A stretch of 64,000 nt of DNA from Mycobacterium sp. UM_WGJ (GTDB taxonomy: Bacteria; Actinomycetota; Actinomycetes; Mycobacteriales; Mycobacteriaceae): positions 1-64,000 of the forward strand of contig NZ_AUWR01000022.1 in assembly GCF_000455125.1 (NCBI RefSeq), read 5' to 3'. How positions within the stretch are numbered: the stretch's first letter is position 1; each line of letters starts with the position of its first letter. Below are positions 211 to 36,583 of the stretch, piece after piece. The notes beneath the pieces are model-generated. The model was not told the DNA's origin and ran no database searches. It saw nothing but the letters and a program-made list of their open reading frames with translations. The position numbers and the translations under genes were made by a program.

Positions 211-228
211 TTGAAGCTCCCGGCATCA

Positions 229-3147
229 ATGACAGCCTCGGCTGGTCCTAGCATCATGTGGCCGGCATCGACCCCGCCTTCCTCTGCCAAACGCTCCAGC
301 CTTGCCACATGTATTCGACGCCTAGCCGTCCCGATCATTCTCGGATGGATTGCCATCGTCGTTGTGCTGAGCACCGGGGTGCCGCCGCTGGAAGTCGTGG
401 GCCAGATGCGCTCGGTGCCGATGAGTCCGGATTTCGCGCCGTCGGTGACCGCGATGAAGCGGGTCGGTCACGTCTTCGACGAGTACACCTCCGACAGTTC
501 GGCGATGATTCTCCTCGAGAGCCGACAGCCACTCGGCGATGATGCGCACCGCTATTACGACGCTCTGATCAGCAGGCTCAGCGCCGACACCGCTCATGTC
601 GAGCATGTCCAGGACTTCTGGGGTGATCCACTGACCGCCGCCGGGGCGCAGAGCAACGACGGCAGGGCGGCCTACGTACAGGTCTACCTGGCCGGCAACC
701 AGGGCGAGACGCTGGCGAACGAATCGCTGGAGGCGGTCCGCAATCTCGTCGCCGAGGTGGACGCCCCACCGGAGGTGACCACGTATGTCACCGGCCCGGC
801 GGCGCTGGCGGCCGACGAGCAGGTGGCCGGTGACCACAGCGCGCAAGTCATCGTGGGTCTCACGTTCTTGGTCATCACCGCGATGATTCTTTTGGTGTAT
901 CGGTCAGTGAGCACCGGGCTGATTGTCTTGGCATTGGTGTTTCTGGCACTCGCCGCGGCGCGCGGCGTGGTGGCCTGGCTCGCGTACTTCCATCTCATCG
1001 GCCTGACGACTTTCGCAACGAACCTTCTGGTCACCTTGGCCATAGCTGCCGCGACCGACTACGCGATCGTTCTGGTCGGCCGCTACCAAGAGGCCCGCAC
1101 TGCAGGTGAAGACCGTGAGACGGCGTACCACACCATGTTCGACGGCACCGCGCACGTGATCCTGGCCTCGGGATCGACGATCGCCGGCGCCACATTCTGT
1201 CTGCACTTCACGCGGCTCCCCTATTTTCAGACGCTCGGTATCCCCCTGGCCGCCGGCATGGTCGTCGCCATGCTTGTGGCGCTGACCCTCGGTCCGGCAA
1301 TCATCACCGTCGCCAGTCGGCGCGGGCTGCTGGAACCCAAGCGGGCGATGCGGATCCGCGGCTGGCGCAAACTCGGTGCGGTCATCGTTCGTTGGCCGGC
1401 TCCGGTTCTCGTGGCGAGCATGGCGCTGACCCTTATCGGTCTGGTCGCCCTGGCGGGCTACCGCACCAGCTACAACGAACGCCGGTACCTACCTGCGGAC
1501 CTGCCTTCCACCGCCGGCTATGCGGCCGCCGAGCAGCACTTCTCCACCGCGCGGATGAATCCCGAAGTGTTGCTGGTGGAGACGGATCGGGATCTGCGTA
1601 ATCCGGCGGACTTCCTGGTGATCGACAAGATCGCCAAGGCGGTTGTGCGGCAACCGGGGATAAGCCGGGTACAGACGATTACCCGGCCGGCTGGCACACC
1701 GCTGAAGTTCAGCACGCTGCCTGCTCAGCTCAGCCTTCAGGGCACCCTGCAGGTCCTGAATCAGGGCTACCTGCGGGACCGAATGAGCGAGTTTGGCTCA
1801 AGCGCCGAAGACCTGCAGCGCAGCATCGACACCATGCAGCGGATGCAGCTGTTGATGACCGAGATGAGCGCCACCACCCACAGCATGGTCGGCAAGACAC
1901 ACCAATTGGCCGACGACACCGCGGAATTACGCGACCACCTCGCCGACTTCGACGATTTCATGCGGCCGCTGCGCAGCTACCTATACTGGGAACCACATTG
2001 CTTCGGCATCCCGGCATGCTGGTCTCTACGATCGATTTTCGATGCCCTCGACGGCCCCGACGTGTTGACCGGCGACATCGATCGATTGCTGCCCGAACTC
2101 GACCGGCTCGATGCGCTAGTGCCACAAATGATTGAGCAGTTGCCCGGACAGATTCAGGCATTGACGTCGACGAGGACAACCATGCTGACCATGCACTCCG
2201 CGCAGAACGGCCTGCTCGACCAAACCGCGGTCATGCTGGACAACCAGTCGGCTATGGGCACCGCTTTCAACGACTCCCAGAACGACGACACGTTCTATCT
2301 GCCACCGGAGGTGTTCGGCAACCAGGAGTTCCAGCGCGGCCTGAAGGTGTTTGTGTCACCTGACGGCCACGCCGTCCGGTTCATCGTCACCCATGACGGC
2401 GATCCCCTGACACCGGAAGGGATCAAACACGTCGACGGCATCAAGCAGGCCGCCAAGGAGGCGATGAAGGGCACGCCGCTGGAGGGGTCGAAGATCTACG
2501 TCGGCGGTACGGCATCGGTGTTCAAGGACATGCAGCAGGGCAACAACTACGACCTGCTGGCGGTCGGGATCGCCGCACTGTGTCTGATCTTCATCATCAT
2601 GCTGGTCATCACCAGAAGCGCGATCGCCGCCGCGGTTATCGTCGGAACCGTGCTGGCGTCACTGGGGGCGTCTTTTGGCCTGTCGATCCTGTTGTGGCAG
2701 CACATTATCGGCTTGGAGCTGCACTTCATGGTGATGGCGATGTCGCTGATCATCCTGCTGGCCGTGGGCTCGGACTACAACCTGCTGTTGGTGGCGAGGT
2801 TCAAAGAGGAGATCCACGCCGGGCTGAACACCGGAATCATCCGGGCGATGGGCGGCACTGGCTCGGTGGTGACCTCGGCCGGCGTGGTGTTCGCCCTGAC
2901 GATGCTGTCGATGGCCGTCAGTGATCTGACAGTCGTGGCACAGATCGGAACGACGATCGCCATCGGTCTGCTCTTCGACACCTTGGTGATTCGCTCGTTC
3001 GTGATGCCTTCTCTGGCTGCCCTGCTCGGCAGGTGGTTCTGGTGGCCGCAACGGGTTCGCCCGCGTCCATTCCCGGCCCTCTGGCCGAATCCGAATACGG
3101 TTGGGCAGCGCGAAGATGCACCACCAGCGCCACAAACCGTGGGCTGA
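229..3147 (+). CDS. mmpL: MmpL4/5-type RND lipid and metabolite transporter
   Basis: This is an inner-membrane RND-superfamily transporter of about 972 residues that would use the proton gradient to move a lipid or lipopeptide outward. The N-terminal helix (AVPIILGW..), the periplasmic block with [15 protein letters not shown], the [16 protein letters not shown] helix and the [15 protein letters not shown] helix match the MmpL4/MmpL5/MmpL2 subfamily as I recall it, and the central coiled periplasmic region ([16 protein letters not shown]..) is also typical. The start is uncertain: ATG at 229 or 256 or TTG at 211 are in frame and none has a good ribosome-binding site. No MmpS partner is present on either side, which is unusual for this subfamily. 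The gene ends at a hairpin terminator shared with the converging gene. Its position a few kb from the isonitrile-lipopeptide operon makes it a candidate exporter, which is inference only. Confidence 0.93.
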
Positions 3148-3258: not shown

Positions 3259-4173
3259 TCAGCCCATCCCGGCGGCGAACATCTCCACCAGATTGACCAA
3301 CGACGCGATGAGCCCGACACCCTCACCCGGGGCCAGGTAGGGCATTCCCATCCCTTGCATCTGCAGATCGAGACCAAGCGAGTTGTAGAGCGAACCGCCG
3401 ACGTTGCCGGCGTCTGTTTCTCCCGGCGTGAGCAGACCGCCAAAGGCGAAACTGGCGCCGAGGACCGCATTGCCTTCCGGAACCTGCAGAACGTCGTTCA
3501 ACAACGGCACCAACGCATCGAGGTCTAACGTTGCCCCGTTGAAGAACGCGCCCACGACGTTGGCCGGAGCGGCCAGCAGCCCTTGCAACGCCGCCTCGAG
3601 GTCTCCTGCGCCGACACTGTCGACGATCGATCCGATGCTGTTGATCAGTTCTACCCCGGGGCTGACAAGCGGGCCGATGAGCCCCATCAGGACACCGCTG
3701 AGCGGCGAGGACAACAGGGTCAGGAACGTTGCCGCGGGTTCCACCGGGTCGATCTGCGGGATCCCCATGCCGAAGTCCATCCCGGCCAGATACTGCAGGC
3801 CCCAAAGATGATTCCAGTCGAGGGTCTGAGCGGCCAACTCCGAACCCTCTGGCGTTGCCACGTCGACACCGAGGAACGTCGCCGCAGCGAACTGCCCTTC
3901 CAGCGTGTCGGCAAACCCGCCTAGAGCGTCCTTGATCGCGTCAAAGACCTGCGACCCGTTGGCCACCGTGGCGTTGAGGACATCCACCCACGGACCGAAC
4001 GGGTCGATCGAAGCGGCGAGTTGCACCGCGGGCGTTGCGGTGCCGCCAGACAGCGCGGGGGTCGCGGGGCTGACCGCGAGTATTCCGGTAACGGCTAACG
4101 CGGCGCCGGCGACCATCAATCCCCGATTGCTGAGTTCTGCTGTGCTGACCTGAGAGTGGCGAAACTGTGTCAT
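3259..4173 (-). CDS. Secreted mycobacterial protein, GjpA-like
   Basis: This encodes about 304 residues with a signal-type N-terminus (basic residues, then GLMVAGAALAVTGILA, then SPATPALS). The mature part begins VQLAASIDPFGPWVDVLNA, which resembles the start of the mycobacterial secreted family annotated as outer membrane porin GjpA. The rest is rich in Gly, Ala and Leu, with amphipathic helices and no Cys. The start chosen is ATG at 4173, because upstream alternatives would put a charged extension before the signal peptide. No enzymatic motif is visible. It lies downstream of the methyltransferase gene on the same strand, 101 bases away, and converges on mmpL. The family link is by resemblance from memory, and a porin role is not shown by the sequence. 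Confidence 0.7.
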   Translation of the reverse strand: MTQFRHSQVSTAELSNRGLMVAGAALAVTGILAVSPATPALSGGTATPAVQLAASIDPFGPWVDVLNATVANGSQVFDAIKDALGGFADTLEGQFAAATFLGVDVATPEGSELAAQTLDWNHLWGLQYLAGMDFGMGIPQIDPVEPAATFLTLLSSPLSGVLMGLIGPLVSPGVELINSIGSIVDSVGAGDLEAALQGLLAAPANVVGAFFNGATLDLDALVPLLNDVLQVPEGNAVLGASFAFGGLLTPGETDAGNVGGSLYNSLGLDLQMQGMGMPYLAPGEGVGLIASLVNLVEMFAAGMG

Positions 4174-4217
4174 GACCAATAAGTCGAGCCGATATGAAAA
4201 AAGTTCCAGGCTTCGAT

Positions 4218-4244
4218 AAGAATCACTCAAGTCCCCGGATTCTT
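4218..4244. other. Hairpin between methyltransferase and GjpA-like gene
   Basis: A 7-bp inverted repeat (AAGAATC paired with GATTCTT, 13-base loop) lies in the 101-base gap. Read on the minus strand it is followed by a run of six T about 16 bases further on. It may be a weak terminator for the methyltransferase gene or an operator for the downstream gene. Confidence 0.3.
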
Positions 4245-4274: not shown

Positions 4275-5087
4275 TCAGCCGAATTCGACCAGGTTGGTCG
4301 GGGCGCGGAACCGGCTCAGGAGCTTGGACCGATAGGCCAACGCAAGTGCCCTGCCGACCACCCTGCCTCGCCCGGGCGGTACACCCAGCTCAGAGACAGC
4401 GTGAACGCCAGGCACCGCACGCAGCTCGCAGTAGTCCTTCGCCGTGAACCAGAAGGGCATTGGAGGCGCCGTGTAGTTGTCGCTGAGCTTGATCCCGCGA
4501 CGCGAGCGTGAGTAGGAGCTCAGCAGTCTCGGGACACTGTCGAAGATCATCCGGCCGCCCGGAAACCTCTCGGCGCAGGCGGCGAGCAGAGCAAACACCG
4601 CTTCGCGATCCAGATACTGCAACAACCCCTCGGCCGTGATCAACACCCCGGCGGAGTCGTCGACCTGGTCCATCCACGAGTAGTCGAGTGCCGACCGGGC
4701 ACACGAGCGCAGCCGGTCTGATGCCGGCAGCAACAGTTCACGAAGTGCGATGATGGGTTCCAAATCCACCGAAAGCCAGTTCAACTGGCCGTTGTCGACA
4801 CGCCAGAAGCTTGTCTGCAGACCCTCCGCAAGGGCAACGACAGTCGCGCGGGGATGCACCGCCAGGTACTCGCGGGTGGCCTGGTCGAACACCAATGCCC
4901 GCATCGCGGTGGCCTGGTGAATCCTGCCGAAGTCGGCGTAATCGTAATCAAGACTGTTGAACAACTCGATCGCCATGGGATCGTCGATCACCCCGTCGGG
5001 CCGCTTAGCCTCGGCCGCCCGCTGATACAGCGTGAGCAATGCCGTCTCCGATATCCCCTCAAGATGACGGGCGTCAATGACTGGCAC
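4275..5087 (-). CDS. Leucine carboxyl methyltransferase family SAM-dependent methyltransferase
   Basis: The 270-residue protein has the layout of the LCMT/TcmP-like class I methyltransferases: an N-terminal segment (LYQRAAEAKRPDGVIDDPMA), a glycine-poor SAM motif region (VVALAEGLQTSFWRVDN), the VDLEPIIALR segment carrying the acidic residue expected to bind the SAM ribose, and LITAEGLLQYLDREAVFALL, the conserved EGLxxYL block. The substrate is unknown. The start is a GTG at 5087. It is divergent from the PPE gene that begins the isonitrile-lipopeptide operon. A role in tailoring that product is possible but nothing in the sequence proves it. Confidence 0.85.
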   Translation of the reverse strand: MPVIDARHLEGISETALLTLYQRAAEAKRPDGVIDDPMAIELFNSLDYDYADFGRIHQATAMRALVFDQATREYLAVHPRATVVALAEGLQTSFWRVDNGQLNWLSVDLEPIIALRELLLPASDRLRSCARSALDYSWMDQVDDSAGVLITAEGLLQYLDREAVFALLAACAERFPGGRMIFDSVPRLLSSYSRSRRGIKLSDNYTAPPMPFWFTAKDYCELRAVPGVHAVSELGVPPGRGRVVGRALALAYRSKLLSRFRAPTNLVEFG

Positions 5088-5247
5088 GCCTTCAGACCGT
5101 ACCCGCCGGACCCCCGTGAGTCGCTGCGAGAAACCTAACCGTGATCGACCGGAACTTTTTGATTCTCACATCCGACCACCTCGGTGGCGGGAACTGGCCC
5201 GCACCTTGCGTTCCGCGCAATCCACGACATCAGAGGAGGTGCCATCC

Positions 5248-6699
5248 TTGACCGCCCCGATCTGGATGGCAATGCCTCCCGAAACGCACTCCGCCATGCT
5301 TGCCGCCGGACCAGGGCCAGGACCTCTGTTGGCAGCCGCCGCGGAATGGCAGCGGCTCAGCGTCATCTACGACGACACCGCCGCCGGACTGACCCGGGTA
5401 CTGGCCGCGGTGCAAAGCAGCCACTGGCAGGGCCCGAGCGCCACGGCGTATCTGTCCGCGCACACCCCGTACCTGACCTGGTTGGAACAAGCGGCCGCCG
5501 ACAGTGCCACGACTGCTGCACAACACCAGACGGCTGCCTCCGCATACAGCGCCGCAGTGGCCTCGATGCCCAGCCTCGACGAGCTGGCCGCCAACCACGC
5601 GGTTCACACGGTGCTGCTCGCCACGAACTTCTTCGGAGTGAACACCGTCCCGATCGCCGCTAACGAGGCCGACTACACGCGGATGTGGGTGCAGGCCGCC
5701 GAGACCATGTCCGTATATCAGGGCACCGCCACTGCAGCCGTCGCAGCGAACCCGCAGATCCGGCCCGCTCCACCCATCGTCTCCAACCCCGCCGCGGCCA
5801 CCTCCCCAGCAGGCGCTGAAGACCCCAATTGGCTACAGGAGCTGACCCGCCTCATCACTGAACTTCTCGACAATGCCGGCAATGTCGAAGAATTGCTGCG
5901 CATCTTCGAGGACTTCTTCCAGAACCTGGGTTTCAACCCGGTGATCGCTACCTTCTTGGCGGCGGTCGCGTTGATCGCCTACGACGTGTTGTGGTATCCC
6001 TACTACGCGTCATACGGCTTGCTGCTGTTGCCGTTCTTCGCTCCCGCGCTCAGCGCGCTGAGCGCCTTGAAGTTGCTGCCGCTGCTGAACGGCCAACAGA
6101 TCCCGGCTGATAAAGGACCAGCCATCGTCGCTCCGTTGGCCGGTGAGGGAAGCGTGGACATCCCCGTTACGGCGATTGCGGCACCGCCCGCTGCGGCCGG
6201 CTCCTCCGCTGGCCTGGGCGGCACCGCCGGTGCACCAGGACCGAGCGCACCCGCCGTCATCCCGAGCCCCGACGGCGTTGCCGCGCTGATCCCCTATGTC
6301 GTCTCCGGCTGGGGACCACCCGGCGTCGAGACCGGCCCCAAAGACGATATGACTGCCTCCAACAGCGTCGCGGCTTCCAGCCGCACGACCGCTCCGCGGA
6401 CCGTCGCCGCTGATGTCCGCGGCCGGCGCAATCGACGCAGCACAGGGCGGGTTCGTATGCACGGCAACCGTTACGAGTTCCTCCAAGCTGGCGACGGCGC
6501 TGTCATGGCCACGGAGTCCGATGCCCGCCCCGCCGAACGCCCCGAGGCCATCGCAGCAGTGGTCGCCTCCACTCGCGCCGCTGGACTCACGGGACACGCT
6601 GACGAGATCCGGCGAGTACCGATGTTGCCCACCAGCTGGAGCGCCTCCGACCAGGTGGAGCAACTGACCCAACCGATGAAGGAGGGAAAAGAAGAATGA
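5248..6699 (+). CDS. PPE family protein, PPE1-like (first gene of INLP operon)
   Basis: This PPE protein of about 483 residues starts MTAPIWMAMPPETHSAML, with the PPE motif near residue 10 and the ESX-type WxG fold signature SSHWQGPSATAYLSAH at about residues 50-65. I chose the TTG at 5248 because AGAGGAGG at 5232-5239 is an ideal ribosome-binding site 8 bases away and the resulting N-terminus is the standard PPE one. The central block LWYPYYASYGLLLLPFF matches what I recall of M. tuberculosis PPE1 (Rv0096), which also precedes the isonitrile genes. The C-terminal third is Pro/Ala-rich. It is probably exported through an ESX system and may help move the product or its metal complex. Its stop codon overlaps an 8-codon ORF leading to the next gene. 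Confidence 0.92.
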   Translation: MTAPIWMAMPPETHSAMLAAGPGPGPLLAAAAEWQRLSVIYDDTAAGLTRVLAAVQSSHWQGPSATAYLSAHTPYLTWLEQAAADSATTAAQHQTAASAYSAAVASMPSLDELAANHAVHTVLLATNFFGVNTVPIAANEADYTRMWVQAAETMSVYQGTATAAVAANPQIRPAPPIVSNPAAATSPAGAEDPNWLQELTRLITELLDNAGNVEELLRIFEDFFQNLGFNPVIATFLAAVALIAYDVLWYPYYASYGLLLLPFFAPALSALSALKLLPLLNGQQIPADKGPAIVAPLAGEGSVDIPVTAIAAPPAAAGSSAGLGGTAGAPGPSAPAVIPSPDGVAALIPYVVSGWGPPGVETGPKDDMTASNSVAASSRTTAPRTVAADVRGRRNRRSTGRVRMHGNRYEFLQAGDGAVMATESDARPAERPEAIAAVVASTRAAGLTGHADEIRRVPMLPTSWSASDQVEQLTQPMKEGKEE

Positions 6700-6722
6700 G
6701 CAAGGAAAGCCACCTCGGATGA
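6696..6722 (+). other. 8-codon coupling ORF between PPE and isonitrile synthase
   Basis: ATG at 6696 overlaps the PPE stop codon (ATGA). The short frame encodes MSKESHLG and ends with a TGA that overlaps the ATG of the next gene at 6719 (again ATGA). GGAGGG at about 6680-6685 can serve as its ribosome-binding site. It looks like a stepping-stone for ribosomes terminating at the PPE stop. It may be fortuitous. Confidence 0.4.
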
Positions 6723-7588
6723 CACTGACCGTCACCGGCACCGGCCTTGGAGCGCAGATCACCGGGGTGGACCCCAATGATCTGAGCAACATCACCCGCG
6801 ACGAAATTCGCGAGATCGTATACGCCAACAAGCTCGTCATCATCAAAGGCGTTCACCCCTCGCCGGAGCAGTACCTCCAGCTCGGCAGAATCATCGGCGA
6901 CATCGTGCCCTATTACGAATCCATGTACCACCATTACGAGTTTCCGGAGATCTTCGTGTCCTCCACCGAGGAACACCAAGGCGTTCCGCGAACCGGCGCG
7001 TTCTGGCACATCGACTACATGTTCATGCCGGAGCCGTTCGCGTTCTCAATGGTGTTACCCCTGAACGTTCCCGGACCTGACCGCGGTACCTATTTCATCG
7101 ACCTCAATCAAGCCTGGGCGTCGGTACCAACCGCCCTACAGGACGCTGCCCGCGGAACATGGAGCACCCATGATCCACGGCGGCACATCAAAATCCGTCC
7201 CGACGATGTCTACCGACCGATCGGGGAAGTGTGGGACGAAATTACCCGGACCACGCCGCCCATCAAATGGCCGACCGTGATCCGGCACCCGAAGACGGGC
7301 GAAGAGATTCTCTACATCTGCGCGTCGGGGACCACCAAGATTGAGGACCAGGAATCCCGAGCGCTCGAACCGTCGGTGCTCCAGGAGCTGATGGCCGCCA
7401 CCGGGCAACTTGATCCCGAGTTCACACACCCCTTCATTCATACCCAACACTACGAGGTAGGAGACATCATCTTGTGGGACAACCGAGTTCTGATGCATCG
7501 AGCCAAACACGGCAGTTCCGCGGGTACCTTGACGACCTATCGGCTGACAATGCTCGACGGGCTCAAGACCCCGGGATACCCGGCATGA
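6719..7588 (+). CDS. Fe(II)/2-oxoglutarate isonitrile synthase (ScoE/MmaE/Rv0097 family)
   Basis: The 289-residue protein belongs to the TauD-like non-heme iron dioxygenases. FWHIDYMFMPEP at about residue 96 gives the HxD pair, and NRVLMHRAKHG near residue 258 gives the distal His; an Arg for 2-oxoglutarate (TTYRLTML) follows. It matches M. tuberculosis Rv0097 closely as I recall it (VSSTEE, GAFWHIDYMFMPEPFAFSMV, THDPRRHIKIRPSDVYRPIG). In the INLP pathway this enzyme oxidises a glycine-derived N-substituted beta-amino acyl group to an isonitrile (Harris et al. work on ScoE/MmaE). It is translationally coupled to the thioesterase gene by an ATGA overlap at 7585. Confidence 0.95.
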   Translation: MTLTVTGTGLGAQITGVDPNDLSNITRDEIREIVYANKLVIIKGVHPSPEQYLQLGRIIGDIVPYYESMYHHYEFPEIFVSSTEEHQGVPRTGAFWHIDYMFMPEPFAFSMVLPLNVPGPDRGTYFIDLNQAWASVPTALQDAARGTWSTHDPRRHIKIRPDDVYRPIGEVWDEITRTTPPIKWPTVIRHPKTGEEILYICASGTTKIEDQESRALEPSVLQELMAATGQLDPEFTHPFIHTQHYEVGDIILWDNRVLMHRAKHGSSAGTLTTYRLTMLDGLKTPGYPA

Positions 7589-8148
7589 GCGCCACCGGTT
7601 CGATGCCCCCAGCCTTGACCGACGCGACCCCGATCGCCGAGAACCTCTTGTCCAAGGTGCTGGAGCCTTACGCCTACAAGGGGTGCCGGTATCTGATCGA
7701 TGCCGAAGCCCAAGCTGACACCGATTCGGTGTTGGCTCAAGGAAGTTTCTCGATCGCCGAATCCGCCTATATCCGCAGCACCGGCCATTTCAATGCAGTC
7801 GAATTGGTGCTGTGCTTCAATCAGCTCGCCTACTCTGCTTTCGCGCCCGCCATCGCCGACGGCGTGATCCCCGCGTTCCATGGTTGGACATTCGACGACT
7901 ACTGCAAGCACCAGCTCTCCAGCATGTACATCAGAACGTCGTCGTCACGGTTCAGAAGACCGATTGATGCCACCAAGTTCCAGGCGCGGCTGCACTGCCA
8001 CAACCTGGAGATCGTCGAACGCACGGTGCGGTATCTGCGCGTGCCATGCGCCATTGAGTTCTGGGATGAGCACGGCGGCTCGGCGTATGGCGAGTTTGAG
8101 CTAGCTGCCCTGAACATCCCGGGATGCCAGCCAGAACGAGCCCGCTGA
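7585..8148 (+). CDS. fcoT: FcoT-type long-chain acyl thioesterase (ScoD/MmaD/Rv0098 family)
   Basis: This is a 187-residue hotdog-fold protein. ATG at 7585 overlaps the previous stop as ATGA. The upstream in-frame extension to 7474 lies inside the preceding gene and is rejected. NLLSKVLEPYAYKGCRYL and SFSIAESAYIRSTGHFNAVELVLCFNQLAYSA match the FcoT/Rv0098 family from memory. In INLP biosynthesis this enzyme is assigned to adding glycine to an alpha,beta-unsaturated acyl thioester on the carrier protein and then hydrolysing it, supplying the substrate for the isonitrile synthase. The next gene follows after a single base. Confidence 0.93.
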   Translation: MSATGSMPPALTDATPIAENLLSKVLEPYAYKGCRYLIDAEAQADTDSVLAQGSFSIAESAYIRSTGHFNAVELVLCFNQLAYSAFAPAIADGVIPAFHGWTFDDYCKHQLSSMYIRTSSSRFRRPIDATKFQARLHCHNLEIVERTVRYLRVPCAIEFWDEHGGSAYGEFELAALNIPGCQPERAR

Positions 8149-8149
8149 C

Positions 8150-9706
8150 ATGAGGACGCAAGCCCCCTCCAGCATGCTGGAGCGCATTCTCGAACACGTT
8201 CGCCAACGGCCCGACGCGATCGCGTTGCGCCGTTGCGATGGAACCGGTTTGGTGAGCTACCGCGATATGGCCGCGGAGTGGGACAGGCTGGCCGGCGCAC
8301 TGCACCAGCAAGGGGTGTCGCAGGGATCGCGAGTGCTGGTCATATCCGACAACGGGCCGCAGACCTACCTCGCGGTCCTGGCGTGCGCCCGGCTCGGCGC
8401 CATTGCCGTTCTGGTTGACGGCGACCTGCCGGTGGCCACCATCGATCGGTTCGCCCAGATGACCGATCCCTCCGCAATGCTGCGCACGGCCGGTACCAGG
8501 ATGCCCACCGCGGGCCTACCGGACCGCCTGGCAGCGATCCCGGCACTGTCGGTTGCCGACGGTCAACCTTTTCGCAACCCACCGGGGAGCCTGGGTCATC
8601 CGGGCGGAGCCGCCGATGATCCCGTAGCGATGATCTTCACCAGCGGAACCACGGGTGAACCCAAGGCTGTGTTGTTGGCCAACCGAACTTTCTACGCCGT
8701 TGCCGACATTCTGCGAGCGGAGGGTTTGACGTGGATCGACTGGGTGATCGGCGAGACGGCGTATTCGCCGTTGCCGGCAACGCATATCGGCGGGTTGTGG
8801 TGGATCCTGAACTGCCTGATGCAGGGCGTGTCATGTGTCACCGGCGGCGAGACCGGCGCGTCGTTGCTGGAGATCCTCTCGGTCAATGACGTCGCCACGG
8901 TTTGTCTGGTCCCCACGCTGCTGTCACGCCTGGTGGCCGAATTGAAGGCGACCGGAGCACCGGTGCCGGCCTCGCTGCGCTTCCTGGGCTACGGCGGATC
9001 CAGGGCTATCGCATCGGACGTACATTACGTCGAGGCTGCCGGGGTCCGAACCGCACAGGTCTATGGCCTGAGTGAAACCGGTTGCACCGCACTGTGCCTT
9101 CCCACCGGGCCGGGTTCGATCGACGCCATCGAGGCGGGTGCTGTCGGCAGGCCGTATCCGGGTGTAGAGGTTCATCTCGACGGCGACGGCAGTGGGCCAA
9201 CGGGGCCTTCGGCATCGTCGGGCACCCTGTGGATCAGATCGCCGGCAAACATGCTCGGATACTGGAACAACCCCGACCGCACCGCTGAAACGCTGCGCGA
9301 CCGGTGGGTCAACACGGGCGACCTGCTCGACGCAGGCAGCGACGGCCTGTTCTATATCCGCGGACGAGCGTCGGAGATGATCATCTGCGGCGGCGTTAAC
9401 GTGGCTCCCGATGAGGTCGACCGGGTCGCGGAGTCGGTCAGCGGTGTCCGCGACGCCGCTTGCTACGAGATTCCCGATCCGGAATTCGGTGCGCTGGTAG
9501 GGCTGGCGGTGGTCGCCGCGGAGAATCTGGACGAGGCAGGCGCCCGCGCCCTTAAGCAGTCGATCGCGGCCCGATACCGCAGCGAGGTGGAATCTGCTGC
9601 GCGCCCGTCGACGATCGTCTTGGTCACCAGCATTCCGAGAACCCAATCAGGCAAGGTCATGCGCACGTCGCTGGCCGCGGCGATCGATGCACGCGAACGT
9701 GAGTGA
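8150..9706 (+). CDS. fadD10: Fatty acyl-ACP ligase, FadD10-type (ScoC/MmaC)
   Basis: The 518-residue member of the ANL superfamily activates a fatty acid as acyl-AMP and loads it onto the small carrier protein encoded next door. The P-loop MIFTSGTTGEPKAVLL is at about residue 161, YGLSETGC (A5) near 304, the WVNTGDL motif near 385 and the hinge/C-terminal GRASEMIICGGVNVAPDEVD near 405. The catalytic Lys is in PRTQSGKVMRTSL near the C-terminus. FadD10 (Rv0099) is the M. tuberculosis equivalent. It overlaps the carrier-protein gene by 20 bases in another frame. Confidence 0.94.
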   Translation: MRTQAPSSMLERILEHVRQRPDAIALRRCDGTGLVSYRDMAAEWDRLAGALHQQGVSQGSRVLVISDNGPQTYLAVLACARLGAIAVLVDGDLPVATIDRFAQMTDPSAMLRTAGTRMPTAGLPDRLAAIPALSVADGQPFRNPPGSLGHPGGAADDPVAMIFTSGTTGEPKAVLLANRTFYAVADILRAEGLTWIDWVIGETAYSPLPATHIGGLWWILNCLMQGVSCVTGGETGASLLEILSVNDVATVCLVPTLLSRLVAELKATGAPVPASLRFLGYGGSRAIASDVHYVEAAGVRTAQVYGLSETGCTALCLPTGPGSIDAIEAGAVGRPYPGVEVHLDGDGSGPTGPSASSGTLWIRSPANMLGYWNNPDRTAETLRDRWVNTGDLLDAGSDGLFYIRGRASEMIICGGVNVAPDEVDRVAESVSGVRDAACYEIPDPEFGALVGLAVVAAENLDEAGARALKQSIAARYRSEVESAARPSTIVLVTSIPRTQSGKVMRTSLAAAIDARERE

Positions 9707-9944
9707 GCTTGTTCGGCAGAAGATTCTGGCCGCGGTCTGCGACGTGCTCTACATCGACGAGAGCGACTTCCTCGACGGTGACGCCACCGACCTACGCGAC
9801 CTCGGATTGGATTCGGTGCGCTTCGTTCTGCTGATGAAACGACTCGGGGTGGACCGCGAGTCCGAACTTCCGGCTCGCTTGGCGCGCGATCTTTCAATCG
9901 CAGCCTGGGTTACCGAATTGGGAGATTCCGGTGGGCAGGCCTGA
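9687..9944 (+). CDS. Acyl carrier protein of the INLP pathway (ScoB/MmaB/Rv0100 family)
   Basis: The 85-residue four-helix carrier protein has the phosphopantetheine attachment motif LGLDSVRF, with Ser at about residue 46, and an acidic helix II. It carries the fatty acyl chain through addition of glycine and isonitrile formation and then donates it to the NRPS condensation domain. Its start lies inside the ligase gene and its end overlaps the NRPS gene by 14 bases, so all three should be made in fixed proportion. Confidence 0.93.
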   Translation: MHANVSELVRQKILAAVCDVLYIDESDFLDGDATDLRDLGLDSVRFVLLMKRLGVDRESELPARLARDLSIAAWVTELGDSGGQA

Positions 9945-12900
9945 CTCGGCGCGCGCGCGGCGCATTCCACTGTCCGTATCCCAGCAGAACATCTACCGGG
10001 GGGTGCTGCAGGATGGGGATCCCACGCTGTATCTGATCGGTCGCAGCTACCGGTTGCGTCCAGTCCCGCTTCGAGAATTTCTTCTCGCGCTGCAGGCCTG
10101 CGTCCGCAACAACCCAGTGCAGTTATGCGTACTGGAGGAGACCGAGTCGGAGTACCCGGACCTGGTGCCGCGGCTCGCAGTGGACGAGCTGGTGCGGATT
10201 GCCGGTCCTGAAATGGATCCGTTGGTCCACGAATGGGATTCGGGCATCCTCGATCGGCCGCTGGTGCGCCACACCGTGCATACCGGCGCGAGCGGCGAAG
10301 TCATCGGGCTGGAGGTGCACGCCCATCACATTCTGCTCGACGGCGGCGCAACCGGACTGATCGAAGCCGATCTGGGCCGGTTCTTGTCGGATGGACCCGG
10401 TGAAATGCGCGACGTCGCAGCCGGACTGGACCGGCTCGCCGAGGCTCATCGCCGGGAGGCTGAGAAGGTGCGCGCAGCACACGATCGGCTGACCGAATCG
10501 GTCCAGCGTGAACTCACCGCTGAGGTCAACATCGGCGGCCAACCACAGTCACCGTCCGCCTCAGGAAGCGCGCGGCGAGGACTGCTGCGTGAATCGATAC
10601 AGATCTCCGGGGCCGGATACGACGCGATAGCAACGCTGGCCGAACAACAGCAGATCCCGCTGCACATACTGGTGACGGCAGCAGTTGCCGCGGTCGATGC
10701 GAGCCGTCGACACAGCGCCGACGCCATGGTGGTGCACGCAGTTGACAATCGATTCGGCGAACCGGCCCTTGATGTGGCTACCTGCCTGGTCAATTCGGTC
10801 GCCCAGTCGGTGCGATTTCCGGCGTTCGCCTCAGTGCGAGACCTCGTCAGCGCCTTGGACCGCGGCTATGTGAAGGGAGTGCGTCGCCGCTGGTTTCGCG
10901 AAGAGCTCTATCGCCGGATATATCTGACGACCAACCGGGCGCCCCAGATGGAGGCGGTAGCCCTCAACTACCTACAGCAGCCCTGTGCACCCGAACTGCG
11001 TCCGTTCCTGAACGGCCTGCCGTCGACAACGGACATCGGGCCGATCGAGTGCCCCACCGTAGCCGTCGTGCACGACGACCTGGGCCGAACACTGAGCCTG
11101 TCAATCTGGGATGGCGGCCCCCCGCAAACCCGTGGCGAATCCACGGGAACCGCAGAGCTGATCGCCGAGGCACTGCGACGGTTCCCGACAGGCTGGGATC
11201 GACCGGTCGCGATGAGCGTCGGCGCCTGGCTCGAGGTCTGTTCCGACGGCAGCTGCCTGCCTTCCGGGAGCGCAGCCGGGCCTAACGCCGAGACCCCATC
11301 GGCTTGGTTTCTGGACACAGCCGCCGACGTCGGCAGTTTGCGCCAACGCCGCCGTTACGTCGACGCATGGATCAGCTGGTTGGTCACCAACGGCGTCGAG
11401 CCGGGTGAGGTGCTGGTTCTCGCCGACGACCACACCGACAAGACCCTGGACCTCTTGTTCGCCTGTCACTTGGCCGGCTGTGGGTACAGCGTTTGCGACA
11501 TCGCAGACGATCTCACCGAGCGCGCCAACGCGATCGCAACGCAAGGCGAAGTCTCGTCGCGGGTCATCGACGTGGCCACGGCCGCGCCTGCGCCAGATCC
11601 GGCGATAGTCGACGACCGCCTCCGTCGGGTCCGCAACGACGCCATGTTGGCGAACAGGATCGCGTACGTCATGCCTACCTCGGGCTCCACTGGGGTTCCC
11701 AAGTTGGTCCCGATATCCCATGGGGCGCTTGCGCTCTTCTGCCAAGGACATCGCGGCGCCTACGGCTGGCAGTCGAGCGATACCGTCTTGCAGTGCGCGC
11801 CGTTGACGTCGGATATCAGTGTCGAGGAGATCTTCGGCGCCGCCCAGTGCGGCGCTGATCTGATTCGGTCATCAGCCGTACGAACCGGCAATCTGCTGCA
11901 GCTGGGCGACGACTTCGAGCGACACCGGCCCACCATCCTCGACCTGCCCACCGCGGTCTGGCATCTGTGCTGCGAGGAGCCGGAGATTCTCGAGATTCTG
12001 GCAGCATCCGGGTTGCGCCAGATTGTGATCGGCGGCGAAGCAGTTCGCCGGCGTTCACTCGAAAAGTGGCTTGCAGCCGTTGACGTTTCGCATACCGCGT
12101 TGATTTCCAGCTACGGCCCGACCGAGGCCACCGTGGTGGTGACCTACCTGCCGCTGAGTGGGCAGGGATCCGTCATCGGATCGGACATCCGGCCGCAGGT
12201 GGGTCGCCCGATAGTTTCGAAGACGGTTTTCGTCGCCTTCGGTGAGATCATCGTTGTCGGAGATATGGTTTCGACCGGCTATCTGGGCAGGTCCGGCGCC
12301 TTCGGCACCGTGGTCGACGCCGACGGCACCCGACGCCGCGCGTTCGCCACTGCCGACCGCGTCACCTGGGACCGTCAGGGATTTCTGGTGTTCGCTGGCC
12401 GCAGGGATGCCGTCGTGAAGCTCGCCGGACGGCGCGTCGACACCGCCGAGATCACCCGCCTTATCGCCGAGGACCCCGCGGTCTGCGATGTCGCCGTCGA
12501 GCCCGAGGAGACCCGGCTCGGAGTGTGGTTTCAGACTCTGCTCACCCGTGACGGAGCACAGGATATTGAGGCTCGGGAACGCATTCGAAGCATCCTGCTG
12601 GCCGCCCGAGTACCCGGATTCGTGGTGTCGGGGGTCGCCGAGATCCCACGCAAGCCCGGCGGCAAAGTCGACGTCGACCGACTGCCCAGGATCCGACTCG
12701 AAAGCACCGGAAACGCAGGAGGTCAAGCGGCCGGCCTGGCCGAACTTTGGAGTCGGTGCCTCGACCGCGAACTACAGCCTCATTCTTCGTTACTGGCTGA
12801 AGGCATCGGTTCCCTGGACTTGATCCGCATCCTGCCTGCCACCCGCCGCTACCTCGGGTGGCACCTGTCCCTGCTGGACGTGATCAGCGCCGACAACGCG

Positions 12901-14070
12901 AGCCGTCTGCTCGAGTACACCGACGGTATCGGGTTGGACGAGGCCACTGCCGCCGAGATCGACGACGATCTCACCCGCCTGACCGCGCCTCCGCCTGCTG
13001 TAATACCCGGCCCCCTGGCCAGCGAGACTGGTGCCGTTCTGGTGCTGGGCGCCTCCGGAATTCTCGGCACCGGATTCGCTAGCGCCATAGGCGAGCTGCG
13101 CGCCAATGGATTCGCCTCCGAGCTGATCCTGGCAACCACATCGAACCTGCCGGACGCCGACCCTTGGCGCTCACTGGCCGGCGTCGAGGGCGTTCGTATC
13201 AAACGCATCGCACCAGAAGGAATTTCCGATCTGATACGCACCACTTCAGCTGCGACCGTGGTGAATGCCATCGGTAACACCAACGTGGTGGTGCCATATC
13301 GCGAGTTGCGACCTGCCAATGTGGCGGCGGTAGCAGACATCGTTGCGGCCTGCGCGGCTCACGGCGCCGGGCTGGTGCATCTGTCGACCTCGGTGGTGAA
13401 CGCGCAAATCGCTGCACCGCAGGTCGTCGATCCGCGCGCCGCCCCCTATCCCTACGCGGCGTCCAAGGCGCTGGCTGAGCTGATCGTCGCGCGCAGTGCG
13501 CCGAATCTGGACTTCACCCTGGTGCGGCTGCCGCGGGTGCTGGGAGAACCGCATCAACTGCGTACGTCCGCCGACATTCTGGTCGCATTGGCGGATGCAT
13601 GTGCGGCGCTGGGTGCTCACCCGGCCGTGTCGTTGACCGAGGAAGTCACCGTTGGCCGCTCGGCAGCGGCTGCCCTCCTGGGCACGCTCTCGACTTCCCT
13701 GGGCCGCACCATCACCGTGCTGCGGGGCACGCCCGTCGAGTACTCGGAGTTTCTCGCCCGCTTCGGCGCCCGGGAGTGCGATGTCGACCAGTGGAAGCAG
13801 CTTCTCGACGACAGTGATTGGGCACGGTGCAATCCATGCCGGTGGGCGGTCATCGACGCCTGGCTCACCCTCGGGATGGGACTCGGCGAGCGTTCGTACG
13901 CGCAGTACCTGGCAGGCCACGCGACTGTCGACCTGACGGTAGACGGGGTCACCGAGTTGTTTGCCACGCCTGCGCCGCTGGCCGAACTTGTGGCTCACGG
14001 CCGTTCATCGGAACCGGACAGCGCCGCCCAGCGACTACTTACAGAGGGATTGAAGGAGGAGAGGCCTTGA
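9931..14070 (+). CDS. Single-module NRPS with reductase domain (C-A-PCP-R), INLP synthetase
   Basis: The 1379-residue enzyme starts at GTG 9931. Domains in order: condensation (about 10-430, HHILLDGG near 131), adenylation (about 450-920, MPTSGSTGVPKLV near 583, SSYGPTEATVV near 727, KLAGRRVDTAEI near 830), carrier (about 930-1010, GIGSLDL with the pantetheine Ser near 958) and a thioester reductase (about 1035-1379, nucleotide-binding GASGILG near 1040 and catalytic YPYAASK near 1174). It would N-acylate one amino acid with isonitrile acyl chains and release the product reductively as an aldehyde or alcohol. A hand reading of the specificity pocket gives D-I-E-D-V-G-S-V-V; the two acidic residues suggest a basic amino acid, probably Lys. 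M. tuberculosis Nrp (Rv0101, 2512 residues) has two modules, so this one lacks a whole C-A-PCP unit, as in Streptomyces ScoA. There is no in-frame scar suggesting a recent deletion. Confidence 0.95.
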   Translation: MGRPDSARARRIPLSVSQQNIYRGVLQDGDPTLYLIGRSYRLRPVPLREFLLALQACVRNNPVQLCVLEETESEYPDLVPRLAVDELVRIAGPEMDPLVHEWDSGILDRPLVRHTVHTGASGEVIGLEVHAHHILLDGGATGLIEADLGRFLSDGPGEMRDVAAGLDRLAEAHRREAEKVRAAHDRLTESVQRELTAEVNIGGQPQSPSASGSARRGLLRESIQISGAGYDAIATLAEQQQIPLHILVTAAVAAVDASRRHSADAMVVHAVDNRFGEPALDVATCLVNSVAQSVRFPAFASVRDLVSALDRGYVKGVRRRWFREELYRRIYLTTNRAPQMEAVALNYLQQPCAPELRPFLNGLPSTTDIGPIECPTVAVVHDDLGRTLSLSIWDGGPPQTRGESTGTAELIAEALRRFPTGWDRPVAMSVGAWLEVCSDGSCLPSGSAAGPNAETPSAWFLDTAADVGSLRQRRRYVDAWISWLVTNGVEPGEVLVLADDHTDKTLDLLFACHLAGCGYSVCDIADDLTERANAIATQGEVSSRVIDVATAAPAPDPAIVDDRLRRVRNDAMLANRIAYVMPTSGSTGVPKLVPISHGALALFCQGHRGAYGWQSSDTVLQCAPLTSDISVEEIFGAAQCGADLIRSSAVRTGNLLQLGDDFERHRPTILDLPTAVWHLCCEEPEILEILAASGLRQIVIGGEAVRRRSLEKWLAAVDVSHTALISSYGPTEATVVVTYLPLSGQGSVIGSDIRPQVGRPIVSKTVFVAFGEIIVVGDMVSTGYLGRSGAFGTVVDADGTRRRAFATADRVTWDRQGFLVFAGRRDAVVKLAGRRVDTAEITRLIAEDPAVCDVAVEPEETRLGVWFQTLLTRDGAQDIEARERIRSILLAARVPGFVVSGVAEIPRKPGGKVDVDRLPRIRLESTGNAGGQAAGLAELWSRCLDRELQPHSSLLAEGIGSLDLIRILPATRRYLGWHLSLLDVISADNASRLLEYTDGIGLDEATAAEIDDDLTRLTAPPPAVIPGPLASETGAVLVLGASGILGTGFASAIGELRANGFASELILATTSNLPDADPWRSLAGVEGVRIKRIAPEGISDLIRTTSAATVVNAIGNTNVVVPYRELRPANVAAVADIVAACAAHGAGLVHLSTSVVNAQIAAPQVVDPRAAPYPYAASKALAELIVARSAPNLDFTLVRLPRVLGEPHQLRTSADILVALADACAALGAHPAVSLTEEVTVGRSAAAALLGTLSTSLGRTITVLRGTPVEYSEFLARFGARECDVDQWKQLLDDSDWARCNPCRWAVIDAWLTLGMGLGERSYAQYLAGHATVDLTVDGVTELFATPAPLAELVAHGRSSEPDSAAQRLLTEGLKEERP

Positions 14071-14426
14071 CCGACATTCGACGGATCCAACTCGATGTGA
14101 CGGGCATGACCTGCCGGATGTGCTCGGCGCACATCGAGCTAAAGCTGAACACGATCAACGGCGTGCGGGCCTCGGTGGACTTCCCGACCGCGACCGCCAC
14201 GATCGACGCGGATTCCACCGTCGATGTCGCTGAACTGTGCGGGGCCATTGCAGACGCGGGTTACCAGGGTGAGCTGCGGTGGGAGCGGCCGCGCACCGCT
14301 GAGGACTTAGCGATCTCCGGCGGTCCCATCAAGCGAATCGCGCGCCTGACCCGGCTCTTCTCCAGGGGCCGGCGCATGCGAAACGCCGGTATTCGAACGC
14401 CGCACGCCGCAACACCGATTCGCTGA
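14067..14426 (+). CDS. Stand-alone heavy-metal-associated (HMA) domain protein
   Basis: TTG at 14067 overlaps the NRPS stop (TTGA) and is preceded by GGAGGAGAG at 14056-14064, giving 119 residues. The first 70 residues form an HMA/copper-chaperone fold with the metal-binding loop GMTCRMC. The sequence resembles the N-terminal domain of mycobacterial CtpA/CtpB copper ATPases from memory (RRIxLDVxGMxC, then TKLNxIxGVRASVxF and ATIDA). The remaining 45 residues are basic and low in structure (RLFSRGRRMRNAG), and no ATPase body follows. In M. tuberculosis a full CtpB gene lies just beyond the homologous NRPS gene. Here the domain is alone and coupled to a predicted metallophore synthetase, which suggests binding or delivery of Cu or Zn. 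It could also be the truncated remnant of an ATPase gene. Confidence 0.85.
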   Translation: MTDIRRIQLDVTGMTCRMCSAHIELKLNTINGVRASVDFPTATATIDADSTVDVAELCGAIADAGYQGELRWERPRTAEDLAISGGPIKRIARLTRLFSRGRRMRNAGIRTPHAATPIR

Positions 14427-14828
14427 TCAGCGGGGCCTCTGACAGAGCCGGCAGAAGGCGGCCGGCCAAGCGCAAGAACCGCGCCGCTCACATCGATCCG
14501 GTCCCGGTGGCCGACCAAGCCGGCGAGCTGAGACAACGACCAGCGTGAGGCGTACGGTTGATTCCAGCGGTGAAGCTCCACCTCATCCGATCGAAGCCAC
14601 ATTCTTTGCGGATCCGCAGGGCGGGCACTCCAGCCTCCCAATCGCAACGAGGTGCCACTGCACCACCGCGACCAGCGGGATCATCGCCGACCTGAAGGTG
14701 CGAGGCGAAGGCAACCCTCCGCGGTATCTGGGCCTGAATCAACGAGATTCGCCCAGCCGAACCGATGCTCTCGCCGAAAGCCATTGCTGCACCACTGATG
14801 GTGCTCACTTTCTGTCTGGAGCTGTGCC
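14427..14828. other. Intergenic region, no recognised gene
   Basis: These 402 bases hold only short frames with atypical composition. I looked for the continuation of a CtpA/CtpB-type ATPase after the HMA domain and did not see its motifs. No hairpin terminator of good quality was found. A minus-strand frame through 14261-14647 has no recognisable family. Confidence 0.4.
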
Positions 14829-14831
14829 TTG

Positions 14832-16244
14832 ATGTTGATCCCCATGTCCCCGACCGATTCGATGTTCTTGCTGGCCGAATCGGACAATCGCCAGATGCAG
14901 GTGGGTGGGCTTGCCATGTTCACCCCGCCCGAAGGTGCCTGTGCCTTGGATGTCCGTCAGATGTTCGCGGCAGCCGTCGCTCGCAACGAAGTCGCCGGCA
15001 TGTGGCGCAAACGGGCTCGCCGCTCAGTGCTGTCGCTGGGACAGTGGGGCTGGGACAGTGGCACCGACGTCGACCTCCACCATCATGTGCAGTATTCGGC
15101 GCTGCCGCGGCCCGCCGGACTGCGGGAGTTGTGGACGCTGGTGTCGTGGCTGCACGCGATCCCGCTGGACCGGGATCGGCCGCTGTGGGAGATGCACCTG
15201 ATCGAAGGCCTCGCCGACGGCCGCTATGCCGTGTACATCAAGGTCCACCATGCGCTCACCGACGGAGTTTCCGCGATGGGGATGCTGCGTGCGGCGTTGA
15301 GTCCTGACCCGTCTCGCCGCGGTCAGCCTGCGTTGTGGGAGCCGGCCGACACGCGCTCCGCGTCTGCACCGGACTCGACGTCGAGCGGTTCGCTGGCGGG
15401 GCGGGCGACGGCGGCGATCTGGGACGGAGCACGCGATGCCGCGGGGTTGCTGCCGGCACTCGCAGGCACGCTGGTGCAGGCCCTGCGCCAGCGCGGCGGC
15501 GCGCTGTCGCTGGTCGCACCGCACACCATGTTCAATGTGGCGATTGACAGTGCCCGGTCCTTCACCGGGGGCTCGTGGCAGCTGGAACGATTGCAGTTGG
15601 TCGCCAAACACAGCGATGCAACGGTCAACGATGTGGTGCTGGCCATGTGCGCCGGCGCCCTGCGCAACTACCTGACCACTAGGAAAGCGCTGCCGTTGGC
15701 GTCGCTGGTGGCGATGATCCCGGTCTCACTGCGGCTGCCCGGGCCTGCGGCCGGCCGGGACGACACCGGCAACAGAATCGGGTCTCTGATGTGCGGCCTG
15801 GCCACCGACCTGGCCGATTCCGGCGAGCGACTGCTGTCGGTGCGGAACAGCATGCACGAGGGCAAGACCGCGCTGGGTGCGCACAGTCAGCTGCAGGTCC
15901 TCGCGATGAGTGCGCTGGGTGCCACACCACTGGCGTTGGGCATGCTCTTCGGTCAGCACAGGCTGCTGCGGCCCCCGAACGTGATGATCTCGAACGTGAC
16001 CGGATCTAAGGTGCCCTTGTACTGGAACGGCGCCCGACTCGACGAGCTCTATCCCCTGTCGATCCCAGTCGACGGGCAGGCACTCAACATCACCTGCACG
16101 AGCACCGACGATACGATTGCGTTCGGGCTTACCGGCTGCCGCGAAGCCGTTCCCGGAATGAGTGAGCTGACCAGACTTCTCGGCGAAGAACTCCGCTTGC
16201 TCGAGCACGCCGCAGGGCTGAGCACGCCGATCGGGCGCCCCTAA
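14832..16244 (+). CDS. Wax ester synthase/diacylglycerol acyltransferase (WS/DGAT) family
   Basis: The 470-residue protein has the WS/DGAT family catalytic motif HHALTDG (near residue 139), which transfers an acyl group from acyl-CoA to an alcohol or diacylglycerol. Supporting blocks are LSPTDSMFLL-like N-terminus (MSPTDSMFLLAESDN), PLDRDRPLWEMHLIEGL and the C-terminal NVMISNVTGSKVPLYWNGARL. ATG at 14832 or 14844 are possible starts. It lies on the same strand as the INLP operon but 400 bases away, so it is probably a separate transcript. The substrate is unknown; storage lipid formation is the usual role. Confidence 0.92.
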   Translation: MLIPMSPTDSMFLLAESDNRQMQVGGLAMFTPPEGACALDVRQMFAAAVARNEVAGMWRKRARRSVLSLGQWGWDSGTDVDLHHHVQYSALPRPAGLRELWTLVSWLHAIPLDRDRPLWEMHLIEGLADGRYAVYIKVHHALTDGVSAMGMLRAALSPDPSRRGQPALWEPADTRSASAPDSTSSGSLAGRATAAIWDGARDAAGLLPALAGTLVQALRQRGGALSLVAPHTMFNVAIDSARSFTGGSWQLERLQLVAKHSDATVNDVVLAMCAGALRNYLTTRKALPLASLVAMIPVSLRLPGPAAGRDDTGNRIGSLMCGLATDLADSGERLLSVRNSMHEGKTALGAHSQLQVLAMSALGATPLALGMLFGQHRLLRPPNVMISNVTGSKVPLYWNGARLDELYPLSIPVDGQALNITCTSTDDTIAFGLTGCREAVPGMSELTRLLGEELRLLEHAAGLSTPIGRP

Positions 16245-17110: not shown

Positions 17111-17410
17111 GTGAAAACCCAAACAAGACCCGAAGAGGCGACGGCGTTGCCGGCCACGGCGATCAGAGACGATGGCAGCAATAACGGTGCTATCTGGCTG
17201 TGGCGCATTGTCGATGAGTTCACTGCCGAGCTCTCCGTCGCTGATTGCCACACCATCTACACCGCCATCTCCAGCGGCCTGGCTGACGGCTGGCTGCCCA
17301 CCAGCACCGAGATTGCCAACCTGGTGGACTTTGCCCGACAGCAGGCGGTCGCAGCGGAGCACGATTCCTTCGCCAGAAGGCCCCGCCCTTCTAGCGGGAC
17401 TCAGCCCTGA
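17111..17410 (+). CDS. Small hypothetical protein
   Basis: GTG at 17111 follows AAGGAAAAC, a plausible ribosome-binding site, and gives 99 residues. The core, [29 protein letters not shown]... to [21 protein letters not shown], has the composition and helix periodicity of a real protein, followed by a low-complexity tail. I do not recognise it. Its end overlaps the end of the converging hpt gene by 10 bases. The 226 bases before it are relatively A/T-rich and may hold its promoter. Confidence 0.5.
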
Positions 17411-18027
17411 TAGACCCGCGGGTCCAGGGTGCCGATGTAGGGCAGGTCGCGGTAGCGCTCGGCGTAGTCGAGGCCGTAACCGACCACGAAGTCGTTCGGG
17501 ATGTCGAAGCCCACGTAGGTGATGTCGACGCCGGCACCCAACGCATCGGGTTTGCGCAGCAGGGTGCACACCCGAAGGGACCGGGGCCGGCGGGTGGCCA
17601 GATTGCGCAGCAGCCACGACAGGGTCAGGCCGGAGTCCACGACGTCCTCGACGATCAACACGTCGCGGTCGCTGATGTCGCGGTCGAGGTCCTTGAGGAT
17701 GCGCACCACCCCCGACGACGACGTCGACGAACCATAGGAGCTGACCGCCATGAACTCGAACTGCGTGGGCAGCGGAATCGCCCGGGCAAGATCGGTGACG
17801 AACAGCACCGCGCCCTTGAGCACGGTGATCAGCAGCAGGTCGCCGCTCTCGGCGCTGCCCTCGGCGTAGTCGGCGGCGATCCGCGCAGCGAGTTCGGCAG
17901 TGCGGGTCCGGATCTGCTCCTCGGTCAGCAACACCGATTTGATGTCACCCGCGTACAACTCGGGTTTTCCCCCCGGCAAGATCGCAGCCACCAGCACAGC
18001 GTGCCATGGCAGGAGTTCGACAACCAA
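17401..18027 (-). CDS. hpt: Hypoxanthine-guanine phosphoribosyltransferase
   Basis: This purine-salvage enzyme converts hypoxanthine or guanine plus PRPP into IMP or GMP. The PRPP-binding motif [14 protein letters not shown] is near residue 125, the flexible loop [12 protein letters not shown] near 95 and [17 protein letters not shown] near 180; all are close to M. tuberculosis Hpt (Rv3624c). The N-terminal 25 residues of the longest frame are unlike the family, so the true start may be an internal GTG before [10 protein letters not shown]. It is the last gene of the minus-strand operon and follows tilS by 30 bases. Confidence 0.95.
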
Positions 18028-35208: not shown

Positions 35209-35219
35209 ACCTTGAGCTG

Positions 35220-36500: not shown

Positions 36501-36583
36501 TCCGCTACCGCGGCGAACAACGCGCCGAGCTGACAATGACGCGCTGCACTCCCCGACCGTGCTGGGTACGTTCTACAGTCGTG

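Follow-up and report, generated by a model that had tools for sequence, protein, structure and literature searches.

The operon described here lies near the start of the window, by which we mean the whole stretch of DNA that was analysed (64,000 nucleotides of contig NZ_AUWR01000022.1 of Mycobacterium sp. UM_WGJ). Its genes, the domains of its non-ribosomal peptide synthetase (NRPS) and the flanking genes are as follows.

211-3147: MmpL transporter gene, upstream of the porin gene
3259-4230 (-): GjpA-type porin gene, upstream of the methyltransferase gene
4275-5087 (-): SAM-dependent methyltransferase, divergent from the operon (LCM 38 bits)
5266-6699 (+; ORF from 5077): PPE protein, Rv0096/PPE1-like (Pfam PPE 204 bits, cut-off 26)
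6719-7588 (+): ScoE-type isonitrile-forming oxidase/decarboxylase, Rv0097-like (NCBIfam NF049937 475 bits, cut-off 400)
7585-8148 (+): FcoT/ScoD-like enzyme, Rv0098-like (Pfam FcoT 194 bits, cut-off 27)
8150-9706 (+): FadD10 acyl ligase, Rv0099-like (NCBIfam NF004515 859 bits, cut-off 726)
9687-9944 (+): stand-alone carrier protein, Rv0100-like (PP-binding 34.7 bits, cut-off 20.8)
9931-14070 (+): single-module NRPS, C-A-PCP-R, 1379 aa (Pfam, motif, profile)
9931-11220 (+): C domain of the NRPS, divergent, HHILLDG (motif and profile-profile match)
11296-12720 (+): A domain of the NRPS, pocket DIEDVGSVV (PF00501 AMP-binding 113 bits)
13006-14067 (+): terminal reductase (R) domain of the NRPS (NAD_binding_4 40 bits; also profile and fold)
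14067-14426 (+): CopZ-like HMA-domain protein (Pfam HMA 36.6 bits, cut-off 24.8)
14829-16244: WS/DGAT gene, downstream of the operon, followed by a short ORF and then hpt
17401-18027 (-): hpt (TIGR01203 215 bits, cut-off 150)
20039-21415 (-): dacB, beyond hpt and a gene that by its position is presumably TilS

Gene identities, domain order, pocket residues and distribution are direct observations. Bases 5001-14500 of the window contain no N. The PPE domain begins near ATG 5266, with TTG 5248 as the other possible start, and a PPE gene is found immediately 5' of the ScoE gene in 74 of the 87 loci compared below. A methyltransferase homologue on the opposite strand occurs within the stretch examined in 72/87 loci, upstream or, in some loci, downstream. 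The top solved-structure match of the ScoE-type protein is a (3R)-3-[(carboxymethyl)amino]fatty acid oxygenase/decarboxylase chain (E 2e-164), and H97, D99 and H260, which we take to be the iron ligands, are unchanged across 12 aligned sequences. The FcoT/ScoD-like gene, whose ATG at 7585 overlaps the end of the ScoE gene, encodes a protein scoring 134 on the NCBIfam ScoD equivalog, under the cut-off of 250, and the carrier protein gene overlaps the genes on both sides (FadD10 and NRPS). The gene content, order and coordinates first proposed (PPE-ScoE-FcoT-FadD10-carrier-NRPS) are thus borne out by family matches above cut-off (ScoE, FadD10, FcoT by Pfam, carrier and PPE), and the ScoE, FadD10, FcoT (Pfam) and carrier matches likewise support the identification as an isonitrile-lipopeptide operon. 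Very probably, the window carries the diisonitrile chalkophore (isonitrile lipopeptide) operon in the form usual for mycobacteria.

The NRPS contains a C, an A and a PCP domain and a terminal reductase, the C domain being assigned by motif and profile-profile comparison only, and the single set of domains in 1379 residues agrees with the original prediction. The Pfam domain search of the window proteins did not recognise the C domain, which matches the N-terminal part of seven NRPSs from Nocardia, Gordonia and Streptomyces (hhalign 96.1% over 393 columns) and whose motif HHxxxDG is present in 87/87 loci. The PCP retains its serine and reaches 20.7 bits on PP-binding, just short of the cut-off of 20.8. 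The R domain misses the NCBIfam thioester-reductase cut-off; a pattern search detected a YxxSK-type reductase motif in 76/86 R domains, that of the window among them, and missed it in the other 10. In the aligned pocket columns of the A domain, the string DIEDVGSVV is exact in 44/87 loci and the form D[IV]ED[VI]G[ST]V[VAI] is present in all 87, with DIEDVGTVV in module 1 of M. spongiae, while in the seven rows from Nocardia, Gordonia and Streptomyces the pocket is D[TA]EDVG[ST][VI][VA].

Module number across mycobacteria

A ScoE search of 396 genomes of the genus returned 89 genomes at E 1e-50 or better and an orthologue in 88, one genome (G268) being excluded as it holds only a 47% paralogue. 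The census covers 87 of the 88 orthologous loci, the window included; the remaining one (G393), cut by a contig end, was left out. In 86/87 loci the C, A and R domains each occur once; two modules are present in a single locus, that of M. spongiae (L045, genome G026), whose NRPS frame has 2563 residues. In 84 of the 86 single-module loci the enzyme is encoded by one open frame of 1367-1492 residues, counted from stop to stop. A second C-A-PCP before the reductase, the mark of the two-module (Rv0101-type) nrp, is absent from the window NRPS. Single-module loci were also found under the names of M. leprae, M. lepromatosis, M. simiae, M. szulgai, M. gordonae, M. asiaticum, M. attenuatum, M. heraklionensis, M. 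icosiumassiliensis and Mycobacteroides chelonae, but these are not added to the 87-locus census because many of them are census assemblies. The other two single-module loci have an NRPS split across two frames (L059, and L118 of M. montefiorense with its matching locus L170), through either a pseudogene or a sequencing error. In M. intermedium, one locus (L136) has PPE-ScoE-FcoT-FadD10-ACP with no recognised NRPS behind, and another of the same strain (L161) has a full NRPS.

The single-module mycobacterial form is mostly known already from print. According to excerpts of the papers concerned, a survey of 72 genomes found that nrp has one module in mycobacteria outside the M. tuberculosis complex (MTBC), M. 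leprae among them, and the longer form in M. tuberculosis (PMC6211224), the nrp ortholog of M. marinum, termed truncated, measures 4250 bp where that of M. tuberculosis has 7539 bp (PMC7924339), and the extra module is described as found only in Rv0101 (PMC9600254). The original prediction had assigned two modules to the M. marinum enzyme, which the length of 4250 bp shows to be wrong, and had taken two modules as the mycobacterial norm, an impression drawn from M. tuberculosis that the 86/87 one-module loci correct. With M. spongiae, the two-module form is now seen outside the M. tuberculosis complex.

The locus of M. leprae TN (L178) resembles that of the window in its order PPE-ScoE-FcoT-FadD10-ACP-NRPS and in the similar size of its single C-A-PCP-R enzyme (53% identity over 1400 columns), but M. 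leprae is without an HMA gene directly after the NRPS (L070) and without hpt in the stretch examined. The M. marinum ortholog, known here from an excerpt in print (PMC7924339), belongs to the same size class and comes with the same enzymes. Streptomyces sco / SF2768-type clusters also combine a single-module-size NRPS with ScoE, FcoT-like and ligase genes (L191), and the A pocket of Streptomyces sp. SID486 reads DAEDVGTVV against DIEDVGSVV in the window; they differ in that ScoE is 47% identical and that C and R are similar at the profile level only. The C-A-PCP of M. spongiae module 1 is 54% identical to that of the window over 1028 columns, but the position of the original R domain is occupied by a second, canonical C-A-PCP-R module. 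Rv0101 of M. tuberculosis, known here from print alone, differs as a two-module nrp. A complete operon with a single-module NRPS is also found outside the Mycobacteriaceae, in Segniliparus rugosus (L172; ScoE 73%), the A domain of which nests among the mycobacterial ones.

Origin of the two-module enzyme and history of the locus

The two modules of the M. spongiae enzyme have different affinities. In an A-domain tree of 96 rows, made by a quick method with SH-aLRT support only and with a long-branch warning raised, A1 groups with the single-module mycobacterial enzymes (43-row group, SH-aLRT 93) and A2 lies apart from them, on a long branch beside the outgroups. A profile built from mycobacterial single-module R domains gives 21-59 bits with the reductases of the seven NRPSs from Nocardia, Gordonia and Streptomyces and -3.1 bits with the two-module enzyme. 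When module 2 was compared with seven stretches of other mycobacterial NRPSs, picked for their R match, R was 70-72% and A 65-67% identical in 7/7; the C domain was 62-68% identical in 4/7 and about 29-31% in the remaining three, and in 2/7 (L218, L219) all four domains, from C to R, jointly matched one terminal module. Based on the R profile score and the resemblance of module 2 to other NRPS modules, the old reductase was most likely lost in M. spongiae and a whole C-A-PCP-R terminal module took its place. This gives a specific route by which the longer form may have originated, with a resident terminal module replacing the old reductase. The two-module (Rv0101-type) enzyme is a derived exception, which the census shows in M. 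spongiae and print reports for M. tuberculosis.

The existence of the longer form in M. tuberculosis (excerpt of PMC6211224) and M. spongiae, and the term truncated applied to the M. marinum gene (excerpt of PMC7924339), would suit an opposite history, in which the ancestral NRPS had two modules and the window enzyme is what was left after its lineage lost one of them. Such a loss is extremely unlikely, considering that NRPSs of single-module size occur in 86/87 mycobacterial loci, in Segniliparus and in the seven Nocardia, Gordonia and Streptomyces loci inspected, that M. spongiae module 1 nests among the single-module enzymes and module 2 does not, and that the single-module R profile finds the reductases of those seven outgroup enzymes but not that of the two-module one. 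An assembly that collapsed one module, or another NRPS gene that provides it, had been named at the outset as a possible objection to a single-module enzyme, and the genome is indeed a draft of 116 contigs. However, a colinear NRPS of about equal size is present in three close relatives (L039, L040, L129), and the enzymes of two of the nearest relatives are 90-92% identical along their full length (92% for M. icosiumassiliensis and 90% for M. heraklionensis, across all 1379 residues). As for a second gene, the best match to the extra module in the same genome, a 1214-aa ORF on contig C20 that we take to be a carboxylic acid reductase, covers only the PCP-R part of that module (58%); C-A-PCP matches on contigs C8 and C61 stop short of the R part, and the search of the genome gave no second C-A-PCP-R gene similar to the extra module. 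Both explanations are so improbable as to be nearly negligible. One might also suppose that the operon is broken or silent, but this is very unlikely with seven ORFs all open, gaps or overlaps between genes of about 20 bases at most, and the HHxxxDG motif, PCP serine, pocket and reductase motif all retained.

The operon had further been described as sitting next to hpt, which was thought to suggest transfer or relocation. hpt is nearby but not directly adjacent, as it lies about 3 kb past the operon with the WS/DGAT gene between. A recent horizontal transfer landing the operon beside hpt would be in keeping with the finding of hpt in the stretch examined in just 5 of the 86 other census loci, with the lower G+C of the ScoE and FcoT genes (59-60% versus 68.6% for the remainder of the window) and with the A-domain tree, where both Segniliparus and the Mycobacteroides group nest within the slow growers, so that transfer does happen in this family. 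However, all five loci belong to close relatives (L039, L040, L041, L042 and L075), in which identity to the window declines in parallel for ScoE (99, 98, 91, 87 and 88%) and hpt (100, 99, 95, 93 and 92%), and the A-domain tree clusters the window with six relatives (SH-aLRT 100). hpt is also present in two named loci, those of M. heraklionensis (same assembly as L040) and M. icosiumassiliensis, while the next relative (L076) keeps the MmpL and porin genes upstream and has no hpt in the stretch examined. A recent transfer is highly unlikely, and an old relocation fits better because operon and hpt junction are common to close relatives with parallel falls in identity. To judge from these comparisons, the hpt junction seems to reflect a rearrangement that happened long ago within the group to which the window belongs, which going by the names of the relatives is Mycolicibacter.

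The WS/DGAT gene is intact in the window, M. arupensis (L042/L130, same assembly) has an 82-aa ORF remnant at the same place, and no match was found in the other locus stretches examined. In Mycobacteroides-type loci (L067-L069, L175, L181, L189), the PPE and methyltransferase genes are downstream of the NRPS, not upstream. With their A domains nested among those of slow growers, these rearranged loci perhaps reflect both transfer and rearrangement.

Predicted product and the HMA-domain gene

Going by family names and print, FadD10 would put a fatty acid on the carrier protein, the FcoT/ScoD-like enzyme would add glycine to the enoyl-ACP, and ScoE would oxidise and decarboxylate the glycine adduct to give a beta-isonitrile. 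The single NRPS module would activate a diamino acid, most likely lysine and possibly ornithine, which the pocket cannot tell apart; the C domain would acylate both amines and the R domain would release the product as an alcohol. The predicted product is a one-residue lipid with two isonitriles that would scavenge copper, and the CopZ-like protein encoded by the last gene could plausibly take the delivered Cu(I). A one-residue peptide core, as originally predicted, is supported by inference; it would be a diamino alcohol. A metal-binding geometry differing from that of the M. tuberculosis kupyaphores was also predicted, and for this we find no support, since the printed structures, as we understand them from excerpts, have both isonitriles attached to the first residue, for which the pocket is nearly the same in the window and in module 1 of the two-module enzyme. 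Given this near-identity, the same kind of diamino-acid core as the first residue of the two-module enzyme should carry both isonitriles. In excerpts of the literature, lysine forms the core of diisonitriles 1-5, which come from clusters of Streptomyces and M. marinum, nrp is induced upon copper starvation and nrp mutants fail at low copper (PMC9600254). Print argues for zinc as well as for copper: a M. marinum nrp-region mutant with less zinc is cited by PMC7924339, and zinc is favoured by Mehdiratta et al., as reported in PMC9600254.

The original prediction ended the operon at 14426 without naming the gene that ends there. This HMA gene starts at a TTG (14067) that overlaps the NRPS stop, with AGGAGG just 5' of the start, and its product has an HMA domain with a CxxC motif (MTCRMC in the window). 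The protein reaches 43 bits on the NCBIfam CopZ equivalog NF047957, under the cut-off of 85, and is therefore called CopZ-like rather than CopZ. A small HMA gene is present 3' of the NRPS and on the same strand in 44/87 loci, with M[TS]CxxC in 44/44 of the proteins. No such gene lies immediately 3' of the NRPS in 43/87 loci, including those of M. spongiae (L045) and the leprosy bacilli (L070, L072), so that it is not essential to the system. HMA-bearing ORFs of more than 500 aa, which are P-type ATPases by size and, in many loci, by similarity, occur within the stretch examined in 38/87 loci; the first 24 kb of the window has none. CtpB, near nrp in M. tuberculosis, supports low-copper growth, according to an excerpt of PMC9147137. 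In the excerpts returned by a literature search, no mention of a small HMA gene in the operon was found, which is not proof of its absence from print.

The HMA protein is a plausible copper acceptor, and its frequent coupling to the NRPS gene makes it an easily testable candidate for the step following chalkophore uptake. More tentatively, and with rather less than even confidence in the whole, we propose that in about half of mycobacterial chalkophore operons (44/87, the window too) the last coupled gene may encode a dedicated cytosolic CopZ-like acceptor taking Cu(I) from the imported diisonitrile and passing it on, and that in the M. spongiae line (and in M. tuberculosis, by print on size) the NRPS reductase may have been replaced wholesale by a resident NRPS terminal module. 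If this is true, the HMA acceptor would be the missing intracellular step of chalkophore uptake.

Elsewhere in the window, positions 26953-31506 (-) encode a 1517-aa P-type cation ATPase (E1-E2 ATPase 128 bits), which we take to be CtpI-like; in M. tuberculosis, CtpI neighbours nrp. In L048/L073, L082, L086, L109, L114 and L115, an additional, divergent pair of ScoE and FcoT genes (ScoE 46-49%) lies inverted near the main operon, with a FadD10-like gene in all of these loci except L109, where the stretch ends; this set possibly makes a second isonitrile product. Finally, the gene at 36536-40507 (+) of the window adjoins an amino acid permease gene (34944-36500); its 1323-aa product has matches to AMP-binding, PCP and hexapeptide families and by its look is presumably a poly-amino-acid (Pls-type) synthetase.
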